Source: Bacillota bacterium (GTDB lineage Bacteria > Bacillota > Bacilli > Paenibacillales > NBRC-103111). From it: DNA of 11,185 nucleotides. The stretch lies in assembly GCA_023386955.1 (NCBI GenBank), contig JAEWIS010000001.1, forward strand, positions 1 through 11,185, in the 5' to 3' direction. Position 1 is the first letter of the stretch. Each line of letters begins with the position of its first letter. The notes beneath the pieces are model-generated. The model saw only the letters and a list, made by a program, of their open reading frames with translations. It was not told where the DNA came from and ran no database searches. Positions 784-11,020 of the stretch are shown in pieces. Made by a program: the position numbers and the translations under genes.

Positions 784-995
784 GAGTCTTTTTGCGGAAG
801 AAACAGATGATGAATGGGAACCAAGTAATTGAAGCGAGTGTAATTCGACTTGGTGGGTACACAATCAAACCGATAATGCCTTTGAAAAAATCCCGTATAG
901 CGCGATATAGCAGGATTTGTCCGTTTTAGGGTAGCATTCAACGCGGCTATGCTGAAGACCTCTGTTTATGGAAAGAGGAGTTGAAGTTTGCCGAA
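784..995. other. Intergenic stretch without a recognisable gene
   Basis: The first part of the gap between the kinase and the ABC operon has no open frame with a ribosome binding site and no convincing terminator. A weak, degenerate copy of the repeat core may sit near 941-951 (ACGCGGCTATG against ACGGAACTATG in array A), out of phase by about 5 bp. A short CCTCT/AGAGG stem lies at about 959-978. Neither is strong enough to annotate separately. Confidence 0.5.
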
Positions 996-1231
996 ACGGA
1001 ACTATGAGGGTCTTACAGTGTTATTTGCATCCTTTTGGGATTCTTACGGAACTATAAGACTCTAAAACGCGGAAAAGCCGGGGTTGGACTGCTAAAAATC
1101 CTTCTAAGAGCCGCTGAGTTCCGCTACAGCTGAAAAAGTCAAAAAAAGTGTGTCTAAGGTCGTTTAAGTTCCGCTACAGCTGAAAAAGTCAAAAAAGTAT
1201 GTTTAAGGTCGTTTAAGTTCCGCTACAGCTG
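996..1231. repeat. Intergenic inverted repeat array A (50-bp phase)
   Basis: The core CGGAACT occurs at 997-1003 and 1047-1053. Its inverse AGTTCCG occurs at 1117-1123, 1167-1173 and 1216-1222. The two forward and first two inverted cores are symmetric about 1085: 50-bp phase on each side, and 77 bp from the start of the inner forward core to the end of the inner inverted core. The conserved unit extends to about 24 bp, with CTCTTAG-like ends, and the sequence between units is not conserved across the dyad. The same geometry recurs at 9724-9908 and 10838-11020. A further degenerate copy (TCGCTTCAGCTG) may lie near 1264-1275. The array is untranslated and lies between two + strand transcription units. 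Function is unknown; it could be a palindromic intergenic element, a relic mobile element or a structured RNA. Confidence 0.85.
1118..1216 (+). repeat. Near-identical tandem duplication of one array A unit (50 + 49 bp)
   Basis: The segment 1118-1167 is followed directly by an almost identical segment 1168-1216, one base shorter in an A-run. Both begin GTTCCGCTACAGCTGAAAAA and end GGTCGTTTAA. A third partial copy starts at 1217 and diverges after about 15 bp. Here even the spacer between cores is conserved, unlike elsewhere in the arrays, which points to recent duplication of a whole unit. Confidence 0.9.
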
Positions 1232-1344
1232 GAAGCAGGCCAGGGTTTGTGAGGCTATCTGTATCGCTTCAGCTGAAAGCCAGCTAATCCAGCGGGAGTG
1301 AGGCCAGTTGAAAGGCAACGTTGTCCTCAGCTCTCCTCATAAAT

Positions 1345-1363
1345 CTGCACAACTTCTGCACAA
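1345..1363 (+). promoter_or_regulatory. Candidate response-regulator site: tandem CTGCACAA
   Basis: CTGCACAA occurs exactly twice, at 1345-1352 and 1356-1363, in phase at 11 bp, or one helical turn. OmpR/PhoB-class regulators typically bind such direct repeats as dimers. The pair ends about 30 bp upstream of the TATGAT hexamer, at roughly -61 to -43 from the expected start site, which suits activation of a promoter with a weak -35. The repeat and spacing are seen directly; the regulator is inferred from the nearby sensor kinase. Confidence 0.5.
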
Positions 1364-1390
1364 TGTCTCGACGATGGCTTCACATGGGGT

Positions 1391-1399
1391 TGTTATGAT
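1391..1399 (+). promoter_or_regulatory. Extended -10 promoter for the ABC operon
   Basis: TGT-TATGAT gives a TGn extended -10 followed by a 5/6 match to TATAAT. No good -35 hexamer is found 16-18 bp upstream, as expected for an extended -10 and/or activator-dependent promoter. Transcription would start near 1406, leaving a leader of about 39 nt before the TTG start at 1445. Confidence 0.55.
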
Positions 1400-1444
1400 G
1401 AGGGCATCACCTGCCCCGGGCGGGAGCGGAGAGGAGAGCTTTCA

Positions 1445-2131
1445 TTGATAAAAGCAGAGCAAGTCAACAAGACCTACGGTACTGGCAGGGAGGCGGCCAA
1501 AGCCCTGCGGGAGATTAGTCTGGAGCTGGGCAAGGGGGAGATGGCTGCGGTGACAGGACCCTCCGGCTGCGGGAAAACCACCCTGCTTCATGTGCTGGCC
1601 GGCCTGGAAACACCGGACAGCGGGACGATCCGGTTGGAAGGCCAGACCATAAATACGCTGGATGAAAAGGCATTAGCCGAGGTCCGGCTGCGCAAAATGG
1701 GCTTTGTGTTCCAGTCCTATCATCTGGTACCTGTGCTGAGTGCGGAGGAGAACATCCGGCTGCCCTTGCTGGCAGCGGGAATGAGCCGGAAGGAGGCGGA
1801 GGCCCGTTCCCGGGAGATGCTGGAGCTGGTGGGACTCTCCAACAAAGCGGGAGCCTATCCATCCCAATTGTCCGGCGGGCAGAACCAGCGGGTTGCCATT
1901 GCCAGGGCGGTGGCCGGCCGGCCGGGCATTCTGTTTGCGGACGAGCCTACCGGCGCCTTGGATTCCGAGACGGCCGAACAGATTATCGGATTATTGGAAA
2001 TGCTGAACCGCCAATATGCCATGACCGTGCTCCTGGTCACCCACGATGAGCGGCATGCCCGGCGGATGCCCCGGCAGATCCGGATGTTTAACGGCCGGAT
2101 TGTGGAGGATGGGGGGCAGCCAATATGCTGA
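1445..2131 (+). CDS. ABC transporter ATP-binding protein (MacB/LolD/BceA-type)
   Basis: This cytoplasmic ATPase powers the FtsX-type permease encoded by the next gene. It has 228 residues, normal for the family. Motifs in order: Walker A GPSGCGKT at 38-45, Q-loop Gln90 (GFVFQSYHLVP), signature LSGGQ at 142-146 (LSGGQNQRVAIARA, with Asn where Gln or Arg is usual), Walker B ILFADEP at 162-168 continuing into the D-loop at 170-173, and H-loop His200 (LLVTHDE). All catalytic residues are present. The start is TTG at 1445, supported by AGGAG at 1432-1436 with 8 nt spacing; no better ATG or GTG lies nearby in frame. The stop overlaps the permease start (ATGCTGA), indicating translational coupling. 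The family handles antimicrobial peptides, macrolides, lipoproteins or cell-wall signals; the substrate here cannot be read from sequence. Confidence 0.95.
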   Translation: MIKAEQVNKTYGTGREAAKALREISLELGKGEMAAVTGPSGCGKTTLLHVLAGLETPDSGTIRLEGQTINTLDEKALAEVRLRKMGFVFQSYHLVPVLSAEENIRLPLLAAGMSRKEAEARSREMLELVGLSNKAGAYPSQLSGGQNQRVAIARAVAGRPGILFADEPTGALDSETAEQIIGLLEMLNRQYAMTVLLVTHDERHARRMPRQIRMFNGRIVEDGGQPIC

Positions 2132-4893
2132 ACCATAGCCTGGCCTGGCGAATGGGAGCTTTATATCTGCGCCGCCAGCTTCGCCAAACGCTACTCAGCG
2201 CACTGGCGGGAGCTATCGGTGCTATGCTGATCACCATGTCCATTTTTCACTACGGCTCTGTCCGCGCCAGCGGCGAAGCGTGGTTGAAGGAGCATTTTGG
2301 CCCGGTAGACTGGGCGCTGGTGCCGGCCCAAACGGGGATCTTCACTCCCGAGGCAGCATCCAAAATCACTGGAGGCGGAGCACCGTCTGTTCTGCCTTAC
2401 CGCTATCTTCCTGCCGTGTCCGCCTCGGCAACGCTTTATTCCGAGGAGCATGCCAGTGCGGATGCCCTGTCCGTGTCCCAAACGCAGGTGCTGGGCTTCG
2501 AGTGGAGCGAGGCGGCTGTTTTTGACCCGGCAAACCCGCTGTGGAGCTCCCCTTTAAAGCCGGGAGAGGCCGTGTTGGACGAACAAACAGCAGGGCAATT
2601 GGGGATTAAGGCCGGGGACGCCGTATATGTATCCGGCAAGGACGGACAGCGCCGCGGGTTTGTGGTCCGGGAGACACCGGCACCGGCAGGCTTAAGCGGC
2701 TACCGTGGCGACGGCGCCCGCCTAAGCGGCACCTTGCTGCTCCACAATGATGACGCCCGGCAGATCGCGGGGGTAGACGCCGGGGAAGCCAATCTCATTC
2801 TGGCCAGCCGGATCAATAAGTCGGATAGTGTTCAAGGAATGAGCATCCTTCCCGAACAGAACGGCTTGTATGACATCCGCTATATCAAGATGAACGCAGA
2901 AGGGATGGCGGAAAGCAATTTGGTTGCGGTCATCCTGATTATCAGCATGACAGCCATATTCTCAAGTGCGTTTTTGTTGAGACAAATCGTCCTTATGCTG
3001 GCGGAGTCCCGGACGGAGCTGTACGGTGTACTGCGGGCTATTGGCCTGAACCGCGGACAGGTAAGGAGCCTGTTTCGAGCGGAGGCTCTGTTATTAGGCG
3101 TTTGCTCAGGTGCAGCCGGAATCCTTATGGGGCTAGCCGGAGGTTATGCCATGGTGCAGATTATCTATGGGACTAAGTTGGCGCAGGAGCTGGGTGCGTC
3201 AGGTATTCCGGTACACCCGGGTATGCCCGCACCGGTGCTGGTTGGGGGAATAGCGGCAGTGCTCCTCTACCAGCTGATACTGGTGCTGGCGGCCAGCCGC
3301 AGCGCAGGAGCAGGCAGCATCGTGTCGGCACTGCGCGGCGTCAACCGGGAGAGCCGGGTTTCCCGGCGTAAACCCGGGGAGGTGTTGGGAGCGCTTTTGG
3401 CCATCGTTCTGCCTTGTGCAGGTATTGTAGGGCTGCATGTCTATATGGCACTGGCATGGAAGCCGGGACAAGCCGACTCGCAGAATGTGCTGGGTTTCGC
3501 CGGGATATGGCTGATGGCGGTAGCTGCGCTGGTGCTGCTGGTGCAAACTTGTCTGATCGGAGCGGGAAAGCGGCTAAGCACCAAGGCAGGTCCGTCCGTA
3601 CTGCTCGCTGTGAAATACGCCAGCCAACGGCGGGGCCGCTCATTTACCGTTATGCTGCTGTTTGCCGTGGGGATGATGACCATTACCTTTACCTCCGGGC
3701 TGGGGGGACTCATCGTGGGCAATATGAATCCCAATCAGGGTGTGCGCACCATAATGGGCTATGACGGTTTAGTTCCTTATGAATCGGCAGCGGAAAAAGA
3801 GACGGTGGAGCAGCTGCTGAAGGAGGACGAGGTTCTGAACCGGCTTGTTTCCGACTCTGCCGACGTGAAACCGTTGATGGTTGCACCGCTAATAAACGGC
3901 GGGAATAACCGGCATAGCCAGGCCATGATTCCCGTCCGCCCTGACCTGCTGACCAACGGAAAATGGTCCCTGTCCGCCCGGGCGCCGGAATTTGCAGATG
4001 ATGAAGCCGCTTGGAACAAGGTGATGTCCGATCCCGGATATATTGTGATGCCGAATCATTACCGGGATTATGGCGGGGCGCAGTCGGAAACCTATTGGAA
4101 ACCGGAAAAGCTGTTTAAGCCGGGGGACAAAGTAGAGCTCGGGTTTTTCCGTAGCGAAAGGGTGGCTGAGGGCGCAGCCCCTGATCTTACCATGACGTTT
4201 ACCATTGCGGGGTTTGCCGACCCTAATACTGCTGACAATGTTGCTGTCCAATATGCATATGCAGCCTCTTATGTACATCCTGAAGTTTGGGGCAAGCTGC
4301 AGGATTACCACCATCCGTGGGGAAATCAGACCCATTTGGGCCTGCTGCTTCTGAAGTTTGATCGGACACAGCTGGAGCAGGATGCCCAAATTGCCCAAAG
4401 ACTGACCTCCGGCGGAGCCGGAAAGGTGATCATTCCGTATCTGGACAGCTGGCGGGAATACAATGCCAATAAGCGGCTGGTGGACGGCTTTATCGGATTC
4501 GCCGCATTATCCTCGGCCATCGGGCTTTTGGGCCTGGCTGTGCTGCAGAAGCGTTCCATCCATGAACGGCAGCGGGAAATCGCCATGCTGAGAAGTGCAG
4601 GTGTGCCTTCCCGGCTCCTGCGTCGGGCATTTTTGCTGGAAGGAAGTTTGCTGGGGGGAATGGGTCTGCTGGCCGGATGGGGGATCGGTCTGACCGGCGC
4701 GCAAGGTTTTATCCGATTGCTCCAAAGTGATCTCAGGCCATGGCAATTTGCGGTTCCAGTCCAATTTCAGTGGGGTCTCCTCGGAGGCGTCATGGTCGTC
4801 ATGATGCTGCTGGCGGTTCTGTTCCAGCTTTCGCCGGCCCGCTCCGCGCTGCGCGGTTCACCCGCGGATACCCTGCGCAAGGCGGATGTTTAG
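2125..4893 (+). CDS. Large two-unit FtsX/MacB-type ABC permease
   Basis: This 922-residue membrane partner of the preceding ATPase has about ten hydrophobic helices, at roughly 22-43, 265-290, 321-348, 369-390, 420-442, 457-478, 508-530, 787-807, 836-862 and 883-902. Two large extracytoplasmic domains, about 44-264 and 531-786, follow helices 1 and 7. The FtsX cytoplasmic motif occurs twice, as ESRTELYGVLRAIGLNRGQV near 294-313 and as ERQREIAMLRSAGVPSRLL near 814-832. The protein is therefore a fused pair of four-helix FtsX units joined by a two-helix linker. BceB-type permeases also have ten helices but one ectodomain and are shorter (about 650 residues). Like MacB relatives it probably works mechanically on extracytoplasmic substrates rather than as a through-membrane channel (family knowledge). 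The start ATG at 2125 lies inside the ATPase stop, with a G-run at 2111-2116 as ribosome binding site. No membrane fusion protein gene is nearby, as expected in a monoderm. Confidence 0.93.
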   Translation: MLNHSLAWRMGALYLRRQLRQTLLSALAGAIGAMLITMSIFHYGSVRASGEAWLKEHFGPVDWALVPAQTGIFTPEAASKITGGGAPSVLPYRYLPAVSASATLYSEEHASADALSVSQTQVLGFEWSEAAVFDPANPLWSSPLKPGEAVLDEQTAGQLGIKAGDAVYVSGKDGQRRGFVVRETPAPAGLSGYRGDGARLSGTLLLHNDDARQIAGVDAGEANLILASRINKSDSVQGMSILPEQNGLYDIRYIKMNAEGMAESNLVAVILIISMTAIFSSAFLLRQIVLMLAESRTELYGVLRAIGLNRGQVRSLFRAEALLLGVCSGAAGILMGLAGGYAMVQIIYGTKLAQELGASGIPVHPGMPAPVLVGGIAAVLLYQLILVLAASRSAGAGSIVSALRGVNRESRVSRRKPGEVLGALLAIVLPCAGIVGLHVYMALAWKPGQADSQNVLGFAGIWLMAVAALVLLVQTCLIGAGKRLSTKAGPSVLLAVKYASQRRGRSFTVMLLFAVGMMTITFTSGLGGLIVGNMNPNQGVRTIMGYDGLVPYESAAEKETVEQLLKEDEVLNRLVSDSADVKPLMVAPLINGGNNRHSQAMIPVRPDLLTNGKWSLSARAPEFADDEAAWNKVMSDPGYIVMPNHYRDYGGAQSETYWKPEKLFKPGDKVELGFFRSERVAEGAAPDLTMTFTIAGFADPNTADNVAVQYAYAASYVHPEVWGKLQDYHHPWGNQTHLGLLLLKFDRTQLEQDAQIAQRLTSGGAGKVIIPYLDSWREYNANKRLVDGFIGFAALSSAIGLLGLAVLQKRSIHERQREIAMLRSAGVPSRLLRRAFLLEGSLLGGMGLLAGWGIGLTGAQGFIRLLQSDLRPWQFAVPVQFQWGLLGGVMVVMMLLAVLFQLSPARSALRGSPADTLRKADV

Positions 4894-4900
4894 CTCAACT

Positions 4901-4922
4901 AAAAAGGGCGCCGCGCGCCCTT
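4901..4922 (-). terminator. Rho-independent terminator for the MarR gene
   Basis: An 8-bp perfect GC-rich stem (4904-4911 with 4915-4922, loop CGC) is followed on the minus strand by TTTTTAG. On the plus strand the hairpin has no T-tract. It therefore serves the minus-strand MarR gene, whose stop is about 50 bp away. Confidence 0.75.
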
Positions 4923-4931
4923 GAATACCGG

Positions 4932-4969
4932 GAAACCCAGGTCATTCGGATGGCTTTGGGTTTCTTTTT
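4932..4969 (+). terminator. Rho-independent terminator for the ABC operon
   Basis: The arms GAAACCCA (4932-4939) and TGGGTTTC (4957-4964) pair perfectly. The interior can extend the stem through CAT/ATG around a TCGG loop. A TTTTT run follows on the plus strand. It lies 39 bp after the permease stop. Confidence 0.8.
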
Positions 4970-4972
4970 CTA

Positions 4973-5470
4973 TTACTCGGCGCCTGGCTGCCGGTTGGTC
5001 CTATCCTCTTCTTCAAACAGGGTCTGCATGTTCCGGTCCAGCGCATCCATAACCCGCCAGAAGGCTTGCATGTCCTCTTCCTCTATGGAATGGCGCAGCT
5101 TGTCCCGAACATGGACGGCGGAGGGCAGGCAGGCATCAAGGAGCCGGCGGCCTTCCTCGCTAAGATGCACCTCGCTTTTGCGCTTGTCCGTATGGTCGGC
5201 GCGGCGGGAGATGAGATTCTTCTTTTCCATGGTTAACAGGATCCGCGTCATGTTCGGACGGTCGTCCATGATACTGTCCCCCAGTTCCGTTTGGGATTGG
5301 GGGCTTTTGACTGCCAATTTATTAAGGATAAACCACTGCTCCGGCGTCAGGTCAAAGCCGCTCTGCTGGAAGGTTATATAATGAAGATGGCGGATCAGGC
5401 GCGAGGTCCGGTACATCCGGAAGGCCACCGTTTCTTGAATGGGGACAAAGGAAGAGGTCGACTCCTGCAT
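4973..5470 (-). CDS. MarR-family transcriptional regulator
   Basis: This 165-residue winged-helix dimeric repressor is of usual MarR length. The helical N-terminal region (about 10-35) is followed by TPEQWFILNKLA (42-53), the helix-turn-helix with recognition segment DRPNMTRILLTMEKKNLI (70-87), a wing with DKRK (95-98), LSEEGRRLL (103-111) and a C-terminal dimerisation helix. The start is ATG at 5468-5470, because AGGAG precedes it by 5 nt (AAGGAGTCATCATG on the minus strand). A longer frame from a TTG at 5578 would run through the promoter and is rejected. The gene is divergent from the MFS transporter, so it probably controls that gene and itself in response to a small-molecule ligand (inference). 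No redox cysteine pattern is evident: there is only one Cys, in the second half (residue 114), so an OhrR-type peroxide sensor is unlikely. Confidence 0.92.
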   Translation of the reverse strand: MQESTSSFVPIQETVAFRMYRTSRLIRHLHYITFQQSGFDLTPEQWFILNKLAVKSPQSQTELGDSIMDDRPNMTRILLTMEKKNLISRRADHTDKRKSEVHLSEEGRRLLDACLPSAVHVRDKLRHSIEEEDMQAFWRVMDALDRNMQTLFEEEDRTNRQPGAE

Positions 5471-5490
5471 GATGACTCCTTTTTGGCTTG

Positions 5491-5545
5491 CTGAATTTGA
5501 ATTACCCCTAGAATAGGCCGGAAACGCCGCTGCTGTCAAATTCAG
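5491..5545. promoter_or_regulatory. Candidate MarR operator: exact 10-bp inverted repeat
   Basis: CTGAATTTGA at 5491-5500 is the exact reverse complement of TCAAATTCAG at 5536-5545, 45 bp centre to centre. One arm overlaps the minus-strand -35 hexamer; the other lies just past its start site. The left arm continues into a second TGAATT-like half. AT-rich palindromic half-sites over the regulator's own promoter are typical of MarR autoregulation. The repeat is seen; the binding is inferred. Confidence 0.5.
5510..5539 (-). promoter_or_regulatory. Promoter of the MarR gene
   Basis: On the minus strand a perfect TTGACA (complement of 5534-5539) lies 18 bp before TATTCT (complement of 5510-5515). 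Transcription would start near 5503, about 33 nt before the ATG at 5470. Confidence 0.65.
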
Positions 5546-5594
5546 GTTTGGACGGGGAAAATGACGGTTTTGTTTCAAAGGAAAGAAGCCCGGT

Positions 5595-5600
5595 TATAAT
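5595..5600 (+). promoter_or_regulatory. -10 element (TATAAT) for the MFS gene
   Basis: A perfect TATAAT lies 96 bp upstream of the MFS start codon. The -35 candidates (TTTCAA or GTTTCA, 16-17 bp upstream) are weak. A loose CAAAT-N8-ATTTG inverted repeat at 5606-5623 lies at the expected start of transcription and could be a second regulator site, but the arms are short. Confidence 0.45.
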
Positions 5601-5696
5601 GGTTGCAAATATCCCGGCATTTGTGAGATTCTTATGGATGACCATGGACTGCCAACAGGCCAGTCCCGAACAGAATTTGCGACCAGGAGTTGTTTT

Positions 5697-6926
5697 ATGG
5701 AGGCTATACCAACGGTACAGATTCTCGGCTTGCGCATGTCCCGGCAGGCCAGAACCAATTTTCAGTGGGATTTTATCGCAGCAGCCCTTTTCAGTCTTTT
5801 TAACGTGGTGTTCAATCAGTTCTACATCCCTATTGCCATCCGTGGAGGGGCAACGGACTTTCAGGTCGGGCTTTTAAGCGCGGCACCGGCTGTGGGGCTG
5901 CTGTTTTCTCCTATCTGGGCCAGCATGGCGGAGCGGCGCAGGGCCAAGTATTTTGTCACCTTCCCCAATATCATCGGACGTCTTCTGATATTTATCCCGG
6001 CTCTGTTCACATCACCATGGGTGTTTGTGGGCATTGCAATGGCCTATCAGTTTCTGCAGGGCATCCAGGCGCCGGCATATGCCACCTTGATGACGCAGAT
6101 TTATCCTGCCGATATCCGCGGGCGGATTATGGGCTATGTCCGGGTAGCTATGGGGCTCCTGATGATTCCGCTGGCCTTTACCGTGGGCATCTGGATTGAC
6201 CGTGCTGGAAGCTTCTACCCTCTTCTGATCGCAGCCTTAACCGGATCGGTGTCAATGGTTATTTTCAGCATGGTGAAGGAAGAGCGTCTGCCTGACCCCT
6301 TGGCTGCCGCCCGCAAAAGGGTCCGCTTCCGGGACCAGTTCACTGTTCTGCGGAATAACCGCCCGCTGGTGCTGTTTCTGATTGCCACCACCTTTTCGGG
6401 CTTTGGCAATATGCTGGCCAACCCGCTGTATAACATCATCCAGGTGCAGCGTCTGGAGCTGTCCAATATGGACATCGGGATTGTGCGGATCTGCTACTTT
6501 GCCCTTTTGCTCCTGGCGTATTTCTTTATGGGAAGAGTGATTGACCGGTTTGGCCCCAAACGGGCGATGATCATCTGTATCGGCTGCCATGTGATGTGTA
6601 CGCTTTTGTACGGCATATTCGGGACCTATCCGGCCGTGCTTATGGCCAGCGGACTGCAGGGTTTTGCCGATGCCACCTGGGACCTGGGCTGTCTGGCTTA
6701 TGTGTTCCGCCTGGCTCCTGGCAAGGAGGGCGTTGTGTTTGGACTGCACCTGATGCTGTTCGGCATCCGGGGCACCATTGGACCTCTGCTGGGGACAGGA
6801 TTGAATGGGGTGCTGCCCATTGAAGCCATCATCCTTGCAGCCAGCTTCTTCTGTCTGTGCGGGTTTTTGACTCTGGTTTTGGCGAAGGAAAAAGGAAAGG
6901 ATCCAGCAGAGCTTGAACCTATGTAA
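5697..6926 (+). CDS. Major facilitator superfamily transporter
   Basis: This is an integral membrane transporter of 409 residues with about twelve hydrophobic segments, at roughly 26-46, 55-75, 89-105, 107-125, 148-167, 172-192, 223-243, 263-280, 288-307, 312-332, 345-368 and 375-395. Motif-A-like loops follow helix 2 (WASMAERRRAKY, 74-85) and helix 8 (GRVIDRFGPKRAM, 279-291), giving the usual 6+6 pseudo-symmetry with a charged central loop at about 193-222. Start ATG 5697 is chosen because AGGAG at 5685-5689 precedes it by 7 nt; an in-frame ATG at 5634 has no site and adds 21 residues unlike an MFS N-terminus. The gene is divergent from the MarR regulator, a pairing usual for drug or metabolite efflux, but the substrate is unknown. 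No antibiotic-specific signature is recognised. Confidence 0.92.
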   Translation: MEAIPTVQILGLRMSRQARTNFQWDFIAAALFSLFNVVFNQFYIPIAIRGGATDFQVGLLSAAPAVGLLFSPIWASMAERRRAKYFVTFPNIIGRLLIFIPALFTSPWVFVGIAMAYQFLQGIQAPAYATLMTQIYPADIRGRIMGYVRVAMGLLMIPLAFTVGIWIDRAGSFYPLLIAALTGSVSMVIFSMVKEERLPDPLAAARKRVRFRDQFTVLRNNRPLVLFLIATTFSGFGNMLANPLYNIIQVQRLELSNMDIGIVRICYFALLLLAYFFMGRVIDRFGPKRAMIICIGCHVMCTLLYGIFGTYPAVLMASGLQGFADATWDLGCLAYVFRLAPGKEGVVFGLHLMLFGIRGTIGPLLGTGLNGVLPIEAIILAASFFCLCGFLTLVLAKEKGKDPAELEPM

Positions 6927-6952
6927 ATCTCATCTCTATTCCGTTATTCCAT

Positions 6953-6993
6953 CCCGTTGCGGCCCGGTATGATGCTGTGCAGTGCGGGTTTTT
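6953..6993 (+). terminator. Probable terminator after the MFS gene
   Basis: CCCG (6953-6956) pairs with CGGG (6985-6988), and TGC (6958-6960) with GCA (6979-6981) after a small bulge. A run of five T follows at 6989-6993. The stem is short and imperfect, and alternative pairing with CCCG at 6963-6966 is possible, so confidence is moderate. Confidence 0.45.
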
Positions 6994-7012
6994 GCTTTTG
7001 GAGGCGCCTTTG

Positions 7013-7041
7013 TTGCTTTTTGGATGCGGTCAAGGTATTGT
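7013..7041 (+). promoter_or_regulatory. Weak candidate promoter for the helicase operon
   Basis: TTGCTT (7013-7018) and TATTGT (7036-7041) are spaced by 17 bp, matching consensus at 3/6 and 4/6. The start would fall near 7048, giving a leader of about 27 nt to the ATG at 7075. No stronger candidate is visible between the MFS terminator and this gene. Confidence 0.3.
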
Positions 7042-7074
7042 AAAGGACGAGAGATGTTACAGGGGGAACCGCTC

Positions 7075-7350
7075 ATGGAGTTGAAGGTATTGAATGCCCG
7101 CATGGAATTTACCGAAGCGGACGGATATGTCGGCAAGGTGGCGTTTGAAGTCGAAGGCCACAAGGAGCCGTATGAAATTGTGCTGCAAAGCAAAAAAGGG
7201 AAAGAGTGGAGCTATGGTCTTTTCTTTCTGAGCCAGCCCGGAGACGAGGATCAGATCCTCGAGGTGGAGGATTGGCTGGAAGAGGACGACGATGCCTATT
7301 ACAGTCTGATTGATGCGGCGAAGCAAGCGCTGCCGGCTTCAGGAGGTTGA
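7075..7350 (+). CDS. Small acidic conserved-looking protein of unknown function
   Basis: This 91-residue soluble protein has no signal peptide or membrane segment. The first half looks like beta strands (MELKVLNARMEFTE, YVGKVAFEVEG, YEIVLQSKKG, WSYGLFFL). The second half is strongly acidic: residues 57-73 contain mostly Asp/Glu, including EEDDD, followed by a short helix. No domain is recognised. The start is ATG 7075 with AGGGGGA at 7061-7067, 7 nt away; an in-frame ATG at 7054 with AAAGGA upstream is a possible alternative that adds 7 residues. The stop is 2 nt before the next start, so it is co-translated with that gene and, through it, with the RNA helicase. A role linked to the helicase is inferred from position only. 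Confidence 0.8.
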   Translation: MELKVLNARMEFTEADGYVGKVAFEVEGHKEPYEIVLQSKKGKEWSYGLFFLSQPGDEDQILEVEDWLEEDDDAYYSLIDAAKQALPASGG

Positions 7351-7352
7351 AT

Positions 7353-7838
7353 ATGTCACATCCCGAACAGGCGTATTTGGATAAATTTTTTCCCAATGGG
7401 CATGAGCTGCCCCAGGACAGGCTGATTCCGGCAATCCTGAGCCAGAACGGCCGGACGGAAATGATGTTCCTGGTTAAGTCTGGGGAGCCCCAGGCGGGAC
7501 TGCTGGCACCGGAACGTGATGCCTTGATGTCCCATACAGATATTTCCGTACAGCTGATGGATACTCCGGATCAAAAAGGGGTTCCCGATCTGCGTATCGG
7601 TTTGGAGCTAACCTATCCCGATGCCGTGGTCCGGTTCCATGCGGTGATTACCGACGAAACCGGGCAGAAGCAGGCAACGCTGGCAACGGCGCTGCTTCAG
7701 GTGCGGCGGATCGCTTTCTTTTTTACGGATGCGGGCATGCAGTTTATTTCCTTCAAGGCCTTCGATTGGCAGCCGGAGGGAATGCCCCACCTGCAGAACA
7801 TTATGACCGATATTAATCGAAAAGGAACGTGTACATGA
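7353..7838 (+). CDS. Uncharacterised protein co-transcribed with the helicase
   Basis: This 161-residue protein appears soluble and of mixed alpha/beta composition, without transmembrane segments or recognised motifs. Visible features are an N-terminal amphipathic segment ([12 protein letters not shown]), a central strand-rich part ([26 protein letters not shown] at about 80-100), and a hydrophobic [22 protein letters not shown] segment around 118-139. The start is ATG 7353, with a perfect AGGAGG at 7341-7346 and 6 nt spacing; a TTG at 7347 lies too close to that site. The stop overlaps the helicase start as ATGA, so translation is coupled. I do not recognise the family. Confidence 0.82.
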
Positions 7839-9526
7839 GCGAAATGCCTTTTGCATCATTGGGAATTTCCCAACCTTATATCAAGAAGCTGCGGGAAGAG
7901 GGGATTGTGACGCCCACTCCGATTCAGGAGGCGGCCATTCCGGTTCTCCTCACCGGCAAGGATCTGATTGCCCAGGCCCAGACCGGTACGGGTAAAACCC
8001 TTGCGTTTGCGCTGCCGCTTCTGGAGGGTTTTGACCCGGAGTATCCCCATGTCCAGGGGCTGATTATCACCCCTACCCGTGAGCTGGCGCTGCAGATTAC
8101 CGCCGAGCTGAAAAAACTGGCTCCTCTGGCAGGCGCCCATATTCTCGCCGTGTACGGCGGGCAGGACGTGGAAGCCCAAAGCCGCAAGATGAAGGGCAAT
8201 CCGGCTATTGTGGTGTGTACGCCGGGACGTCTGGTGGACCATATGCGCCGGGGCAACATCGATTTGGGCCGGGTACGCAAGCTGGTGCTTGACGAAGCGG
8301 ACCAAATGCTCCACATGGGCTTTCTGACGGATGTGGAGGGCATTATCCGGCGTCTTCCCAACGCCAGACAAACCATGCTGTTCTCTGCCACTATGCCGGA
8401 CCAGGTGAAGGCCTTGGCCCGGAATTATATGAAGCAGCCGGAGGATGTGCGGATTCAAGGCAAGCAGGTGACGTTGGAGGAAATCCGCCAATTTGTGGTG
8501 GAAACTACGGACCGCGCCAAACAAGCCACTTTGTTCCGCATGCTGGAGGTTTACCAGCCGTTCCTGGCGGTGATCTTCTGCCGCACTAAGCTCCGTGCCA
8601 GCAAGTTGGCGGAAGCCATGAAGGATAAGGGCTTCAATGTGGATGAGCTGCACGGCGACCTGACCCAGTCCAAGCGGGAGCAGGTTATGGAGCGTTTCCG
8701 CAAGGCCGATCTGCAATATCTGGTGGCGACGGATGTAGCCGCCCGGGGTCTGGACGTGGAAGGGGTTACCCACGTATTCAACTACGACATTCCCCTGGAC
8801 CCGGAATGGTATATCCACCGTATCGGCCGCACTGGCCGGGCCAAACAAAGCGGTACCGCCATTACGCTGGTGGCGGCTAAGGACCGTGGTCTGCTGGAGA
8901 AAATTGAGCGGGGCATTCACATGACCCTGAAGCGCCGGAGCATGGAGGAGTTTAACATCCAGGGTACGGGGATGATGGATGAGGATTATGATCCGCTGGA
9001 GAGCGGAAGCGGCAGGAGCGGCGGCGATAGCAGTCGCAAGCGCAGCGCTTCCGGCGGCGGAGCCCGTCCGGCAGCGAGTCGCGGCCAAGGCGCGCGCAGT
9101 GGCGGAGGCGGCAGTCGAAGCGCAGGCGAATGGGCCCCGCGGCGCGGCGGCAATGCGGCCGCCGGGCCGAAGGAAGGCGGCCGCCGGAGCGGCGGTAAGC
9201 CGGAGCGCAGCGGCGCGTGGAGCGAGGCGAAGCCAGCCCGCGGTGGTGCCGGCGGCGAAGGCAAGCCGGCGTACCGCGGCGGCAGCAGTGCCGGGGCCGG
9301 CGAAGGCAAGCCCTACCGCGGCGGCGCCGAGGGTAAGGCGAAGCCATACCGCAGCGGCACAGGCGGAGGCGGCAACGCCGGCGGCGGGTTTGGCGGCAGC
9401 CGTGGCGGCAAGCCATACGGCAGCGGCAAACCGTCCGCAGGCGGGCGGCCGGCGTCTGGCGGCAGAAGCGCCGGACCGGCCAGAGGCGGCGAACGCCGCC
9501 CCGCACCGAAGGGACGCCGTCCGTAA
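7835..9526 (+). CDS. DEAD-box ATP-dependent RNA helicase with Gly/Arg-rich tail
   Basis: This cytoplasmic helicase unwinds RNA structure in cold adaptation, ribosome assembly or mRNA decay (family knowledge). It has 563 residues. Motifs: Q motif F6...TPTPIQ (26-31), motif I AQTGTGKT (48-55), Ia PTRELALQ (80-87), Ib TPGRL (129-133), II DEAD (153-156), III SAT (184-186), IV VIFCRTK (246-252), [12 protein letters not shown] (298-308), [10 protein letters not shown] (328-335). The RecA core ends near 380. Residues 391-563 form a low-complexity tail rich in Gly, Arg, Lys, Ser, Pro and Ala, likely a disordered RNA-binding extension. The start is ATG 7835, in an ATGA overlap with the preceding gene, with AAAGGA 8 nt upstream; a GTG at 7829 is less well placed. 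CshA/CshB-like is the nearest description, but the divergent tail prevents a firm symbol. Confidence 0.95.
9005..9523 (+). repeat. Low-complexity GC-rich coding repeat (helicase tail)
   Basis: The DNA consists of GGC/CGC/AGC-rich triplets that encode irregular repeats. Recognisable are [21 protein letters not shown] and GKPYGSG spaced by about 12-25 residues within 9235-9450, amid GGAGG and SGGR runs. High GC keeps several other frames open here; those are not genes. The region is prone to length change by slippage. Confidence 0.8.
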
Positions 9527-9549
9527 GCGGCGCGGCGCACAGACGGAAG

Positions 9550-9580
9550 AGACCGGCAGGGGAGACCCTCCGGTCTTTTT
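9550..9580 (+). terminator. Strong Rho-independent terminator after the helicase
   Basis: AGACCGG (9550-9556) pairs with CCGGTCT (9570-9576), with an inner stem AGGG (9558-9561)/CCCT (9566-9569), loop GAGA and one bulged C. A run of T follows directly. It lies 24 bp past the helicase stop and ends the three-gene operon. Confidence 0.88.
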
Positions 9581-9723
9581 GCTGCGTTGTTCCCTAAGTC
9601 GGTTGGAAAACCATCTAAGGTCCGCTTTTCACCGAAGTTGTTGCAGAGTTGTCACGAATTGGACTGGAATGATGTGGCGGAATTGATAAGATAAGTGTAA
9701 TGTCCCCGACATGACAAGGGAAG

Positions 9724-9908
9724 CTAACGGAACTCAGCGGCTCTTAAACCATAAAACGAGACTTGCTGCGATTCTAACGGAACTCAGAAGCTCTTAGCGG
9801 GTACGTAAGCACATAAATGGCGCCAAATCCTCTGCTAACAGTCGCTCAGTTCCGTTAGATTGGAAGTTGGCCCATTTTACCCCTCTAAAGGGAGCTCAGT
9901 TCCGTTAG
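9724..9908. repeat. Intergenic inverted repeat array B (50-bp phase)
   Basis: This is the cleanest of the three arrays. CTAACGGAACTCAG begins at 9724 and 9774; its near-inverse CTCAGTTCCGTTAG ends at 9858 and 9908. Each unit is about 24 bp with CTAA/TTAG-like ends and an inner GCTCTTA-like segment. Unit phase is exactly 50 bp on each side and the dyad centre is 9816. Sequence between units is unrelated. It fills most of the 9527-9942 gap; the remainder (9581-9723) holds no recognisable gene or good promoter. The last unit ends 34 bp before the CPBP start, so the CPBP promoter must lie within or before the array. A weak TTGGAA (9860-9865)/TCTAAA (9884-9889) pair with 18-bp spacing is all that is visible. 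Confidence 0.9.
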
Positions 9909-9942
9909 CGTCTATACGCGGAAAATGATGAGGTGGAGAATC

Positions 9943-10776
9943 GTGATTGACAGGAAGACCATGGTACAATATACAGCGCTGACATTTGCCATTGCCATTC
10001 TTGTGTCAGGTGCGTTGATTGTGCTTGGGCCATTCGGCTACAAGGTTCACAATTGGGTTTACTCGATACAGGATTTCGCAATGAATATTCCTTTTGCCAT
10101 CTACATTTTGTCTCCTGCGATTGCCTCATTTATCATTCTCAAGAGAAATCACAAAGTCACCAATTTGATGGATTGGCTGAAAACGGTTTTTTACGTCAAA
10201 AACAAAATTTTTCCTTATTTGTTCGTTATAGCAGGTCTTGCGCTTTATTTTGGAATTCATCTTGCGGTTTCAGGCCGCATTGAATTGGCGCTTCCGTTTT
10301 ATGCGTTTTTCCTGTCCCTGCCCGGTAATCTGATTATTGGAGGTTTGGAGGAAACGGGATGGTCGTACATATTGCTACCAGGGCTTAACAAAAAATATGG
10401 CTTCGTGGTATCCTGCCTCATCGCCGGGGTCATTTGGAGCTTTTGGCATATCCCGCTTTTCTTCATTCCGGGGACAAATCATGGAGAGGGACTAATTAAC
10501 TTTTGGATGTTCGTTGTGCAGCTTATGGCGTTCCGGTTTTTCTACGGGGCCATCTACCGGATCTCTGGCAAAGGCGGTGTGTTCATGTGTGTTTTATTCC
10601 ACACTATGTTCAATGCAGCCTCCCCTCTCTTCGGCACTATGACCATGACATGGGCGGGAACCATCGCCGCAAATGCCGCGTTAGTTCTTATATCCATTTG
10701 TACCGTTGCGATTTACGATAGAATTGCAGGGGACGCAGGATCGGCCATAGGGCTGAACGGACAGCGCCTGCAATAA
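9943..10776 (+). CDS. CPBP-family (Abi/CAAX protease-like) membrane protein
   Basis: This 277-residue polytopic membrane protein has about seven to eight hydrophobic segments, at roughly 11-32, 50-67, 90-110, 118-134, 152-170, 186-203, 211-228 and 238-258. CPBP motifs are in order: motif 1 GGLEETGW (133-140), with Glu136 and Glu137; motif 2 WSFWHIP (165-171), with His169; motif 3 FHTMFN (219-224), with His220 and Asn224. The Arg that normally completes EExxxR is replaced by Ser141. Members are intramembrane metalloproteases or bacteriocin-immunity-type proteins. The start is uncertain: GTG 9943 has AGGTGGAG upstream at 9930-9937, while the in-frame ATGs at 9925 and 9928 lack a ribosome binding site and would add 5-6 residues. 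The gene is visibly AT-richer than its neighbours and sits alone between repeat arrays B and C, which hints at acquisition. No partner regulator or bacteriocin gene is in the window. Confidence 0.85.
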   Translation: MIDRKTMVQYTALTFAIAILVSGALIVLGPFGYKVHNWVYSIQDFAMNIPFAIYILSPAIASFIILKRNHKVTNLMDWLKTVFYVKNKIFPYLFVIAGLALYFGIHLAVSGRIELALPFYAFFLSLPGNLIIGGLEETGWSYILLPGLNKKYGFVVSCLIAGVIWSFWHIPLFFIPGTNHGEGLINFWMFVVQLMAFRFFYGAIYRISGKGGVFMCVLFHTMFNAASPLFGTMTMTWAGTIAANAALVLISICTVAIYDRIAGDAGSAIGLNGQRLQ

Positions 10777-10837
10777 GGAGCATCAGCTTCATTACCAGTT
10801 GTTACCCGTCACCCGTTTCATTGGAGTGCTTAGTCGT

Positions 10838-11020
10838 TAACGGACTATAGAGGCGTTATTTCGAGAAAAACGGGCATTTTGCCAATCTAACGGACCCATG
10901 TTCCGTTATATGGATGAAAATGATAGTTTTCCAGCTGATTCTGGCTAAATAACGGCTCCTCAGTCCGCGAAAATCCTCCAAACGCGAAAATACGGAAAAT
11001 AGCGGCTGCTGAGTCACTGG
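10838..11020. repeat. Intergenic inverted repeat array C (diverged copy)
   Basis: TAACGGAC begins at 10838 and 10888; inverted cores AGTCCG (10962-10967) and AGTCAC (11012-11017) follow. The dyad centre is 10929, with the same 50-bp phase and the same 77-bp inner span as arrays A and B. Units are more diverged here. Some are short palindromes themselves: TAACGGA pairs with TCCGTTA across 10888-10908. The geometry has outlasted the sequence. The array follows the CPBP gene, and no T-tailed terminator is visible between 10777 and 10837. Confidence 0.78.

Follow-up and report, generated by a model that had tools for sequence, protein, structure and literature searches.

Three intergenic arrays in the window, the 11,185-nucleotide stretch of DNA analysed here, are each best explained (probability roughly 0.7) as a site, acting at the DNA level, where DNA would wrap into a nucleoprotein complex of two-fold symmetry with a putative, probably dimeric protein. 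We favour this reading because the box spacing is fixed, the inner span changes by about one helical turn, and phased sequence blocks run through the dyad. On the same three observations, the proposal of the first-pass annotation that selection acts on geometry, through a two-fold symmetric protein assembly on ~180 bp, is well supported by the comparative sequence data. A chance origin of the spacing was rejected on the shuffles and spacing counts.

Arrays in the window

Three arrays, A, B and C, had been described in which two forward cores face two inverted cores in a 50/77/50 layout. This description was correct, the centres given for the arrays (1085, 9816 and 10929; Table 1) were exact, and the layout recurs far outside the window. 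The exact pattern CGGAACT-N43-CGGAACT occurred four times in the window (on the forward strand from 997 and 9728, on the reverse strand at 1117-1173 and 9848-9904), with a mean of 0.00 in 200 dinucleotide shuffles of the window. The inner span was 77 bp in both A and B (core starts 997/1047 and 9728/9778; inverted ends 1123/1173 and 9854/9904). Array C likewise showed the 50/77/50 layout, with forward cores at 10841 and 10891 and inverted cores ending at about 10967 and 11017, and its box letters differ. It had been regarded as a diverged copy of A and B; instead of being simply decayed, it belongs to a different box family (CGGAC...CCGTTATT), of which several relatives occur in Paenibacillus sp. 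YN15. The four-box layout held in A, B and C, but it does not describe array A completely, as a third inverted box lies 49 bp further out. Because the stretches 1142-1185 and 1191-1234 are 93% alike, this box probably arose when a single 50-bp unit was duplicated in tandem.

Table 1. Boxes and arrays located in the window.
Feature	Position	Strand	Details
Array A, outer forward box	994..1015	+	core 997-1003
Array A, inner forward box	1044..1065	+	core 1047-1053; 50 bp from outer
Array A, inner inverted box	1105..1126	-	core 1117-1123; inner span 1047-1123 = 77 bp; dyad 1085
Array A, outer inverted box	1155..1176	-	core 1167-1173
Array A, extra third inverted box	1204..1225	-	core 1216-1222; 49 bp beyond outer inverted box
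Array B, outer forward box	9725..9746	+	core 9728-9734
Array B, inner forward box	9775..9796	+	core 9778-9784
Array B, inner inverted box	9836..9857	-	core 9848-9854; inner span 77 bp; dyad 9816
Array B, outer inverted box	9886..9907	-	core 9898-9904
Array C, outer forward box	10838..10860	+	second box family, TAACGGAC...CGTTATT
Array C, inner forward box	10888..10910	+	50 bp from outer
Array C, inner inverted box	10948..10970	-	inner span 10891-10967 = 77 bp; dyad 10929
Array C, outer inverted box	10998..11020	-	most diverged box
Array A, whole	994..1176	.	histidine kinase gene (ends 783) / ABC transporter gene (starts ~1445), both +
Array B, whole	9725..9907	.	DEAD-box helicase gene (ends 9526) / Rce1-like membrane protease gene (starts ~9925), both +
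Array C, whole	10838..11020	.	downstream of Rce1-like gene (ends 10776)

Box spacing is conserved in related genomes

The arrays were compared with those of Paenibacillus sp. YN15, the nearest of the genomes available for comparison, and of a second genome of the same genus. In regions chosen for holding array matches, where counts are not genome-wide rates, all 60 arrays sampled had an inner span of either 76-78 or 86-88 bp, and arm spacing was 50-51 bp in 115 of their 120 arms. Same-strand box pairs at most 60 bp apart were spaced by 50 bp (n = 115), 51 (12), 49 (2), 46 (2), and 45, 57 or 20 (1 each). Convergent inner spans fell at 76-79 or 86-88 bp, with 80-85 empty; a span of 79 was seen in one three-box array. 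Arms outside the selecting pattern were spaced by exactly 50 bp in 23 of 31 and by 50-51 bp in 26 of 31, and four of these 31 departed by 4-7 bp (46, 46, 45 and 57). An anticipated excess of the 50-bp spacing was recovered with a pattern allowing 35-65 bp, which placed 25 of the 30 first-listed places in YN15 and its sister genome at exactly 50 bp. Nor were boxes equally often unpaired in these two genomes: single boxes made up 13 of 81 box clusters, two of them high-scoring. Box centres thus spaced, at 50, 61 or 71, and 50 bp, lie near whole turns of a ~10.1-bp helix.

Orthologous arrays showed how the layout changes. One pair differed by a 10-bp insertion near the dyad; in a second, the difference at that place was 11 bp, and one arm had also lost 4 bp. 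The third was gapless over 177 bp, with identity at 72 of the 88 positions in boxes and 49 of the 89 in spacers; within it, strongly phased spacer positions were conserved in 25 of 34 cases versus 9 of 24 for weakly phased ones. A YN15 array (C82:10674) shares the right flank of the array L149:15085, in an alignment that needs several gaps; it is a member of a multiplied sub-family and need not be an ortholog.

Spacers are phased through the dyad

The spacers had been considered free in sequence. Instead, they alternate between A/T and G/C at ~10 bp, and A, B and C each scored above all 2,000 of their self-shuffles (boxes included). A/T blocks recur every 10.0-10.2 bp with G/C blocks between them, in phase through the dyad. 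When spacers only were analysed, the best period was 10.1 bp in 19 arrays of the 77 type and 15 of the 87 type, far above every permutation, with R2 values of 0.57 and 0.63 at this period and of 0.14 and 0.13 at 10.5. The best spacer period in 31 half-arrays with CGYTATT boxes was 10.0, far above every permutation, and 60 of 62 arrays exceeded the 95th percentile of their own flanks for phasing (boxes included).

A profile distinguishing only A/T from G/C was trained on 34 arrays. It recovered these 34 and 13 of 28 arrays outside training, and also found five arrays of previously unseen box families; it gave no match in shuffles or across 80 other loci totalling 1.58 Mb. The profile missed 15 of the 28 untrained arrays and array C of the window (6.5 against a threshold of 25). 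The 10-11-bp periodicity of whole genomes has been argued, in the excerpted account, not to reflect bending (PMC7537859).

Box families and distribution across the order

The same layout was found with other boxes: inverted-partner matches within 15-86 bp lay at 50-51 bp, equivalent to 77-78 bp here, in 31 of 54. By hand count, 248 of the 392 genomes sampled from the order matched the half-array pattern with other boxes, and 84 of the 248 did so at least 10 times. As the remaining 144 of the 392 had no half-array match, the array is not required by all members of the order. The CGGAACT version gave no pairs at 49-51 bp in 80 helicase-neighbourhood loci, and the A/T-G/C scan of these was likewise empty. 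Tandem repeats of 51-52 bp (L038, L057, L058 and L073) resemble the arrays in period but were excluded, since they run head-to-tail, with no inverted halves in the stretches examined.

Boxes outside family 1 are partly palindromic, the right CGYTA having a mirror-image TARCG in 29 of the 62. Family-1 boxes are poor internal palindromes: matching is seen in 40-95% for the outer three pairs, 3-50% for the fourth and fifth, 90-97% for the sixth and 0-16% for the inner four.

Gene context and chromosomal position

Among 61 arrays, 27 lay between convergent, 31 between codirectional and three between divergent genes, on crude open reading frame calls that 13 of the 61 overlap. Within gaps of at least 250 bp, divergent arrangements made up 1 of 50 with an array versus 19 of 109 without (Fisher p 0.004), and convergent ones 21 of 50 versus 27 of 109 (p 0.04). 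The arrays are thus dispersed, intergenic and situated at gene ends, as BIME/REP elements are. No recurrent neighbour gene was found at 123 sites, some of which rest on a single pattern match and may not represent true arrays; the largest group, ABC ATPases, accounted for 12 of the 123.

Among the matches listed for six near-complete chromosomes, 68 of 101 merged positions lay in the origin-proximal half (58 of 70 on five chromosomes and 10 of 31 on G018), a count that mixes full pattern lists with listed model matches, uses rounded chromosome lengths, and leaves out G170 entirely, a tandem run in G018 and one further G018 match that is not array-like. This excess may reflect only the location of conserved genes.

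Alternative explanations

If the array acted as RNA, folding as one long stem or a row of hairpins, its inverted boxes could pair, and a within-spacer hairpin signal was indeed seen in arrays of the 87 class (0.525 against a permuted 0.42, sd 0.04), a class that holds one multiplied sub-family. In boxes of other families, position 3 pairs with position 13 more often than in permutations (0.45 vs 0.28, sd 0.04; relatedness uncontrolled), and a hairpin would give the same. However, left and right spacers were no more complementary within than between arrays (0.329 vs 0.360; 0.360 vs 0.374), which disfavours the long stem suggested in the first-pass annotation, and the spacer hairpin was absent from the 77 class (0.309 vs 0.318). 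No Rfam family reached its gathering score in the window, and neither the 10-bp phasing nor the one-turn steps have an RNA rationale. Pairing across the dyad, whether as RNA or as a cruciform, was disfavoured by the negative pairing test and the empty Rfam result in the window, and an RNA function is very improbable. Just as improbable is that the arrays are old, related repeats that have not yet suffered indels, with no selection on geometry. Copies within one family are related, and substitutions are generally commoner than indels; yet the spacing is common to box families whose spacers are dissimilar, 40 of 89 spacer positions differ in the gapless ortholog pair, and length changes usually amount to one helical turn.

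A MITE-like mobile palindrome or recombination site, its boxes bound by a transposase or recombinase and its spacing fixed by a synaptic complex, would account for one sub-family that is multiplied in YN15 with partly shared flanks. It would also fit an array of G002 (L154:1550) that is absent from G001 with synteny on both sides, the location of all three L149 arrays where synteny with G001 breaks, and a 4.7-kb stretch of different sequence in G001 next to one of the two L154 arrays; these breaks rest on five arrays in two 20-kb stretches, too few to judge. As a discrete transposon, a possibility raised earlier, the array found no support: target-site duplication stayed within the permuted range (60 arrays, k 2-6 and 8, offsets 0-11, 100 permutations), and flank similarity in 15 YN15 arrays, common to some, tapered into mosaic flanks without sharp ends. 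The lack of a recurrent neighbouring gene, the absence of a phage or plasmid match to array B at E 0.01, and spacers phased up to the dyad, which a transposon end does not need, also make a mobile origin unlikely. A strong gyrase (or topoisomerase IV) site, cleaved centrally, wrapped on both sides and placed at gene ends as in E. coli BIME-2, would explain the long, symmetric G/C-phased pattern, the gene-end placement and the excess at convergent genes. In the part of the published description cited here, the E. coli gyrase motif spans 130 bp with periodic flanks and a central cleavage part, and gyrase sites lie inside BIME-2 elements (PMC6379681). That description gives the motif a period of 10.75 bp, against 10.0-10.2 in the arrays, and the four specific, fixed boxes have no counterpart in it (PMC6379681). 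The middle of the array is only A/T or G/C phased, tolerates insertions of 10-11 bp and holds no conserved cleavage region, so a gyrase site is a decidedly unlikely explanation.

Discussion

If the arrays are wrapping sites, a box-binding protein would occupy the four ~22-bp boxes on one helix face, and the phased spacers would let the ~180 bp between them wrap round a protein core. This putative protein is perhaps a dimer, given the partial palindromes in boxes outside family 1; the poor palindromes of family 1 make the dimer a guess. Where the sequence period of curved DNA is shorter than the 10.5 bp of relaxed DNA, the path expected is left-handed and of nucleosome type. With a period of 10.0-10.2 bp, a left-handed wrap is therefore predicted for the arrays, opposite to that of gyrase. 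The several box families per genome might be read by paralogous proteins, or by one protein reading mainly the shared right half and the geometry. Since the arrays lie between convergent or codirectional genes and rarely between divergent ones, their placement suggests a role in chromosome organisation or supercoil buffering at the ends of transcription units, not in promoter control.

A search of literature listings found no described element like the four-box array. BIME/REP elements of enterobacteria, of which BIME-2 is gyrase-bound, resemble the arrays in being dispersed, intergenic, at gene ends, built of inverted units and present in many copies per genome. REP units are hairpins with variable linkers, whereas family-1 boxes are poor hairpins lacking the stem-loop palindrome of BIME/REP, and the arrays have a fixed 50/77/50 layout and phased spacers. 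Eukaryotic and archaeal nucleosome positioning sequences have no fixed specific boxes and show A/T at ~10-bp intervals about a dyad, G/C being in antiphase; the arrays share this phasing around a dyad and differ in their boxes. The E. coli gyrase motif and the strong gyrase site of Mu are likewise symmetric, longer than 100 bp and helix-phased in G/C; as far as the cited portion describes it, the motif covers ~130 bp at a period of 10.75 with a central cleavage part, in contrast to 180 bp, 10.0-10.2 and four boxes in the arrays (PMC6379681). In Bacillales, octamers of RemA and of LrpC/AsnC have been proposed, in the excerpt drawn on here, to wrap DNA in a ring-like manner on phased degenerate sites, those of RemA being AT-rich 7-bp direct repeats, 3 bp apart, upstream of promoters (PMC8481266). 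The boxes of the arrays, by contrast, are 22 bp long, 50 bp apart, inverted and rarely between divergent genes. On the basis of published work, RemA and Lrp were weighed as candidate binders.

More tentatively, and short of an even chance, the array may be an order-wide programmed positioning element, in which four box-bound dimers would hold ~180 bp in a nucleosome-like, probably left-handed form at fixed intergenic places, with the geometry selected and box and reader co-evolving between species, perhaps marking transcription-unit ends and the origin-proximal chromosome. The general view is that bacterial chromosomes, single regulators and gyrase sites apart, have no wrapped particles programmed by sequence. 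Comparative data alone point to selection that acts, at dozens of places per genome and order-wide, on both rotational phase and the distances between boxes. The geometry of the arrays outlasts their sequence, and ordinary motif and homology searches easily overlook such cases. The arrays offer a testable object for positioned, nucleosome-like complexes in bacteria.

Recurrence and spacing of the arrays

The first-pass annotation had described three intergenic arrays in the window (A, B and C), each of two forward and two inverted cores with a shared 50/77/50 geometry (arm spacing, inner span and arm spacing in bp), and all three were located as claimed; the boxes that contain these cores are about 22 bp long. 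The inner span measured exactly 77 bp in arrays A and B, and array C, despite its different box letters, also measured 50/77/50. CGGAACT-N43-CGGAACT matched the window four times, once per strand in each of A and B, whereas 200 shuffles averaged 0.00 matches. Array A carries an additional inverted box 49 bp farther outward. A Pfam search of the window genes identified as flanking genes a histidine kinase, an ABC transporter ATPase with an FtsX-like permease, a MarR regulator, an MFS transporter, a DEAD-box helicase and an Rce1-like membrane protease; one protein had no match in this search (see table).

The nearest locus to the window, reached via the helicase protein, was found in Paenibacillus sp. 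YN15 (G001; 95% amino-acid identity). In this genome, CGGAACT-N{28,58}-CGGAACT gave 136 matches (71+65) and the reversed pattern 11 (9+2). The excess at a spacing of 50 for which the annotation had proposed a scan was found: 25 of the first 30 places listed were exactly 50, the remaining ones being 51 (2), 52 (1) and 48 (2, one a 24-bp tandem repeat). A stricter pattern with CTTA occurred 118 times in YN15, 64 times in a second genome of the same genus (G002), three times and once in two other genomes, and not at all in 100 of 104 family genomes.

Sixty stretches (40 of YN15, 20 of G002) were sampled, picked for pattern matches or relatives of array C and, in one case, for an ortholog of the Rce1-like gene; the sample is thus not random. 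In these stretches and the window (1,047,570 bases), a 22-bp box weight matrix at 10 bits gave 287 hits, against 24 in shuffled sequence. The hits formed 81 clusters, 60 with exactly two forward and two inverted boxes, five with that set plus extra hits and three with other partial sets. Boxes were not equally often single, since lone boxes made up 13 of the 81 clusters (2 of these above 17 bits). Among 60 full arrays outside the window, the inner span was 76 (3), 77 (21), 78 (3), 86 (1), 87 (22) or 88 (10) bp, with none between 78 and 86, and arm spacing was 50 or 51 in 115 of 120 arms; a span of 79 occurred in one three-box array separate from these 60. The 31 arms not matching the selecting pattern were spaced by 50 (23), 51 (3), 49 (1), 46 (2), 45 (1) and 57 (1). 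For arrays with CGGAACT-core boxes, the 86–88 type accounted for 32 of 37 in YN15 and the 76–78 type for 22 of 23 in G002, as if one turn had been gained in one lineage.

Helical phase of the spacers

Profiles of the 77 class (inner span 76–78 bp) and the 87 class (86–88 bp) showed A/T blocks near 18, 28, 38–39, 48–49, 68, 78 and 88, counted from the start of the core. G/C blocks separated them, and the alternation continued into the dyad (the array centre) in both classes. From the spacers alone, the best period was 10.1 bp in the 77 and 87 classes (R2 0.57 and 0.63, versus 0.14 and 0.13 at 10.5) and 10.0 in 31 half-arrays with CGYTATT boxes, and in all three sets the periodicity far exceeded every permutation. 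With boxes included, the pooled best period of whole arrays was 10.2, and the phasing of 60 of 62 arrays lay above the 95th percentile set by 123 flanking stretches. Each of the window arrays A, B and C outscored all 2,000 of its own shuffles.

A base-blind A/T-versus-G/C profile, trained on 34 of the arrays themselves, was run over the YN15 stretches with the window and over the G002 stretches. It peaked 30 and 19 times, respectively, at box clusters and 4 and 2 times elsewhere, with no peak in shuffles or in 1,579,383 bases of 80 helicase neighbourhoods. It recovered its 34 training arrays and 13 of 28 others and missed 15; window array C was missed. One of these six other peaks lay within a known cluster; the remaining five were arrays whose boxes, of TCTAACGG or TCTAACGAATC type, were new, at unchanged spacing. 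Phase and geometry therefore reached arrays overlooked by the letter pattern, and the scan is far from complete.

Comparison of orthologous arrays

Two 20-kb loci of G002, L149 and L154, were compared with YN15 (see table). In the gapless pair, 72 of 88 box positions and 49 of 89 spacer positions were identical; strongly phased spacer positions were conserved at 25 of 34 and weakly phased ones at 9 of 24. In another pair, a single insertion converts a 77 array into an 87 array. All three arrays of L149 lie at synteny breaks with YN15, and these breaks include both ends of a 9.5-kb block located elsewhere in that genome.

Both loci also contain a repeat of about 165 bp with dozens of YN15 copies (mostly ~80–93% identity), absent at the matching YN15 site in both cases; the L149 search also found it in a third genome (G003). 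Given its apparently inverted ends (of GTTTGCAAAC type in L149), it is probably an ordinary MITE.

Positions of arrays, repeats and other features discussed in the text
Feature	Position	YN15 counterpart	Observation
Orthologous array	L154:15826	C52:79356	Gapless, 177 bp
Array differing in span	L149:13962	C22:2452	10-bp insertion near dyad
Array differing in span and arm	L149:15085	C22:1362	11-bp difference near dyad; 4-bp loss in one arm
Array with other flank of L149:15085		C82:10674	Alignment needs several gaps; member of multiplied YN15 sub-family
Array absent from YN15	L154:1550		Both sides present; 461 bp vs 60 bp between matches
~165-bp repeat	L149:7492-7658, L154:3985-4149		
50-bp tandem run	G018:C1:1740914-1741370		CGCTATT half-box on one strand
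50-bp-spaced boxes	G424, e.g. C12:57533, C22:62		Six matches in genome
Protein without Pfam match	window 7347-7838		

Reach across the order

Several box families have CGYTATT as their right half, and CGYTATT-N43-CGYTATT was therefore chosen as query. At least one match, which marks one array half only and when alone may be chance, was found in 66 of 104 family genomes, 31 of the 47 genomes from which named loci come, 248 of 392 sampled order genomes and 34 of 299 class genomes (a sample that includes order members). Ten or more matches occurred in 84 of the 392 order genomes (hand count), where the reversed control reached 12 in a single genome, with two genomes at 5 and no other above 4; some of the counts include other 50-bp tandem repeats, e.g. 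in G120 (P. agaridevorans) and the further genome G018. Several of 30 loci from the family-wide search held no array. Near-exact inverted partners 15–86 bp from the matches lay at 50 or 51 bp in 31 of 54 cases, the 77–78 layout; carriers include P. eucommiae (G020, L188), P. castaneae (G136, L236) and Paenibacillus sp. MSJ-34 (G112, L228). A sequence-only half-array model, built from 37 sequences, some of YN15 and G018, found at least 43 to at least 149 half-arrays per genome in eight genomes at E 0.001 or better, with 150 of 963 to 2,497 first-look candidates scored in each.

The tandem run in G018, with no inverted half among the matches listed, is possibly an expanded relative of the arrays. 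Most matches in G424, a class-sample genome, have boxes resembling ATAGCGGAAAA..TTTCCGCTATT, perhaps a further box family. Head-to-tail tandem repeats of 51–52 bp occur in loci of other genomes (L038, L057, L058, L073), with no inverted half in the stretches examined.

Proposed working and gene context

The first-pass annotation had offered an RNA stem, a mobile palindrome or a two-fold symmetric protein assembly on about 180 bp. A long stem or cruciform would pair left and right spacers, and this pairing was no better within arrays than between them (0.329 vs 0.360 in the 77 class, 0.360 vs 0.374 in the 87 class); a within-spacer hairpin signal appeared in the 87 class only (0.525 vs 0.42), a class that holds one multiplied sub-family. 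The mobile reading, palindrome or transposon, found no flank duplication at 60 arrays, and flanks were mosaic in 15. The protein assembly agrees with both spacing and phase. In 62 boxes of other families, moreover, position 3 matched position 13 above the permuted level (0.45 vs 0.28, sd 0.04), with pairs 0/16 and 4/12 weakly raised and the remaining pairs lacking a clear excess. We take the 3/13 pairing as a sign that a protein reads the box with two-fold symmetry, although a small hairpin would give the same pattern and relatedness among the boxes may contribute.

Among known systems, a gyrase site is unlikely: the E. coli gyrase motif repeats every 10.75 bp and is cleaved in a central part (PMC6379681), and the arrays differ in both. 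The nearest Bacillales wrapping protein found, RemA, protects AT-rich 7-bp repeats spaced by 3 bp, according to the available text of PMC8481266. Within the open-access journal literature, no listed title or abstract on intergenic, palindromic or miniature inverted repeats and nucleoid-associated proteins of Paenibacillus, on REP/BIME in Firmicutes, or on nucleosome-like or periodic bacterial sequences described such arrays.

Box centres are 50, 61 or 71, and 50 bp apart. As read from the sequence, at about 10.1 bp per helical turn all four boxes face the same side of the DNA, and the intervening DNA is patterned to bend in register. We infer that the boxes would be bound by a protein, perhaps dimeric, which would link all four in a two-fold symmetric body with about 180 bp wrapped around it. 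The inner span of 77 or 87 suggests two rigid half-sites joined with whole-turn latitude.

On six near-complete chromosomes, arrays were scarce near the terminus, with 7 of 101 listed positions in the last fifth of the origin–terminus distance; five of the six showed an origin-proximal excess, on which no claim rests.

By simple ORF calling in non-random loci, 61 arrays lay in 27 convergent, 31 codirectional and 3 divergent contexts. Gaps in these loci measuring 250 bp or more were divergent in 1 of 50 cases when they held an array and in 19 of 109 when they did not (p 0.004); the corresponding figures for convergent gaps were 21 of 50 and 27 of 109 (p 0.04). These counts suggest that the arrays may work at gene ends.
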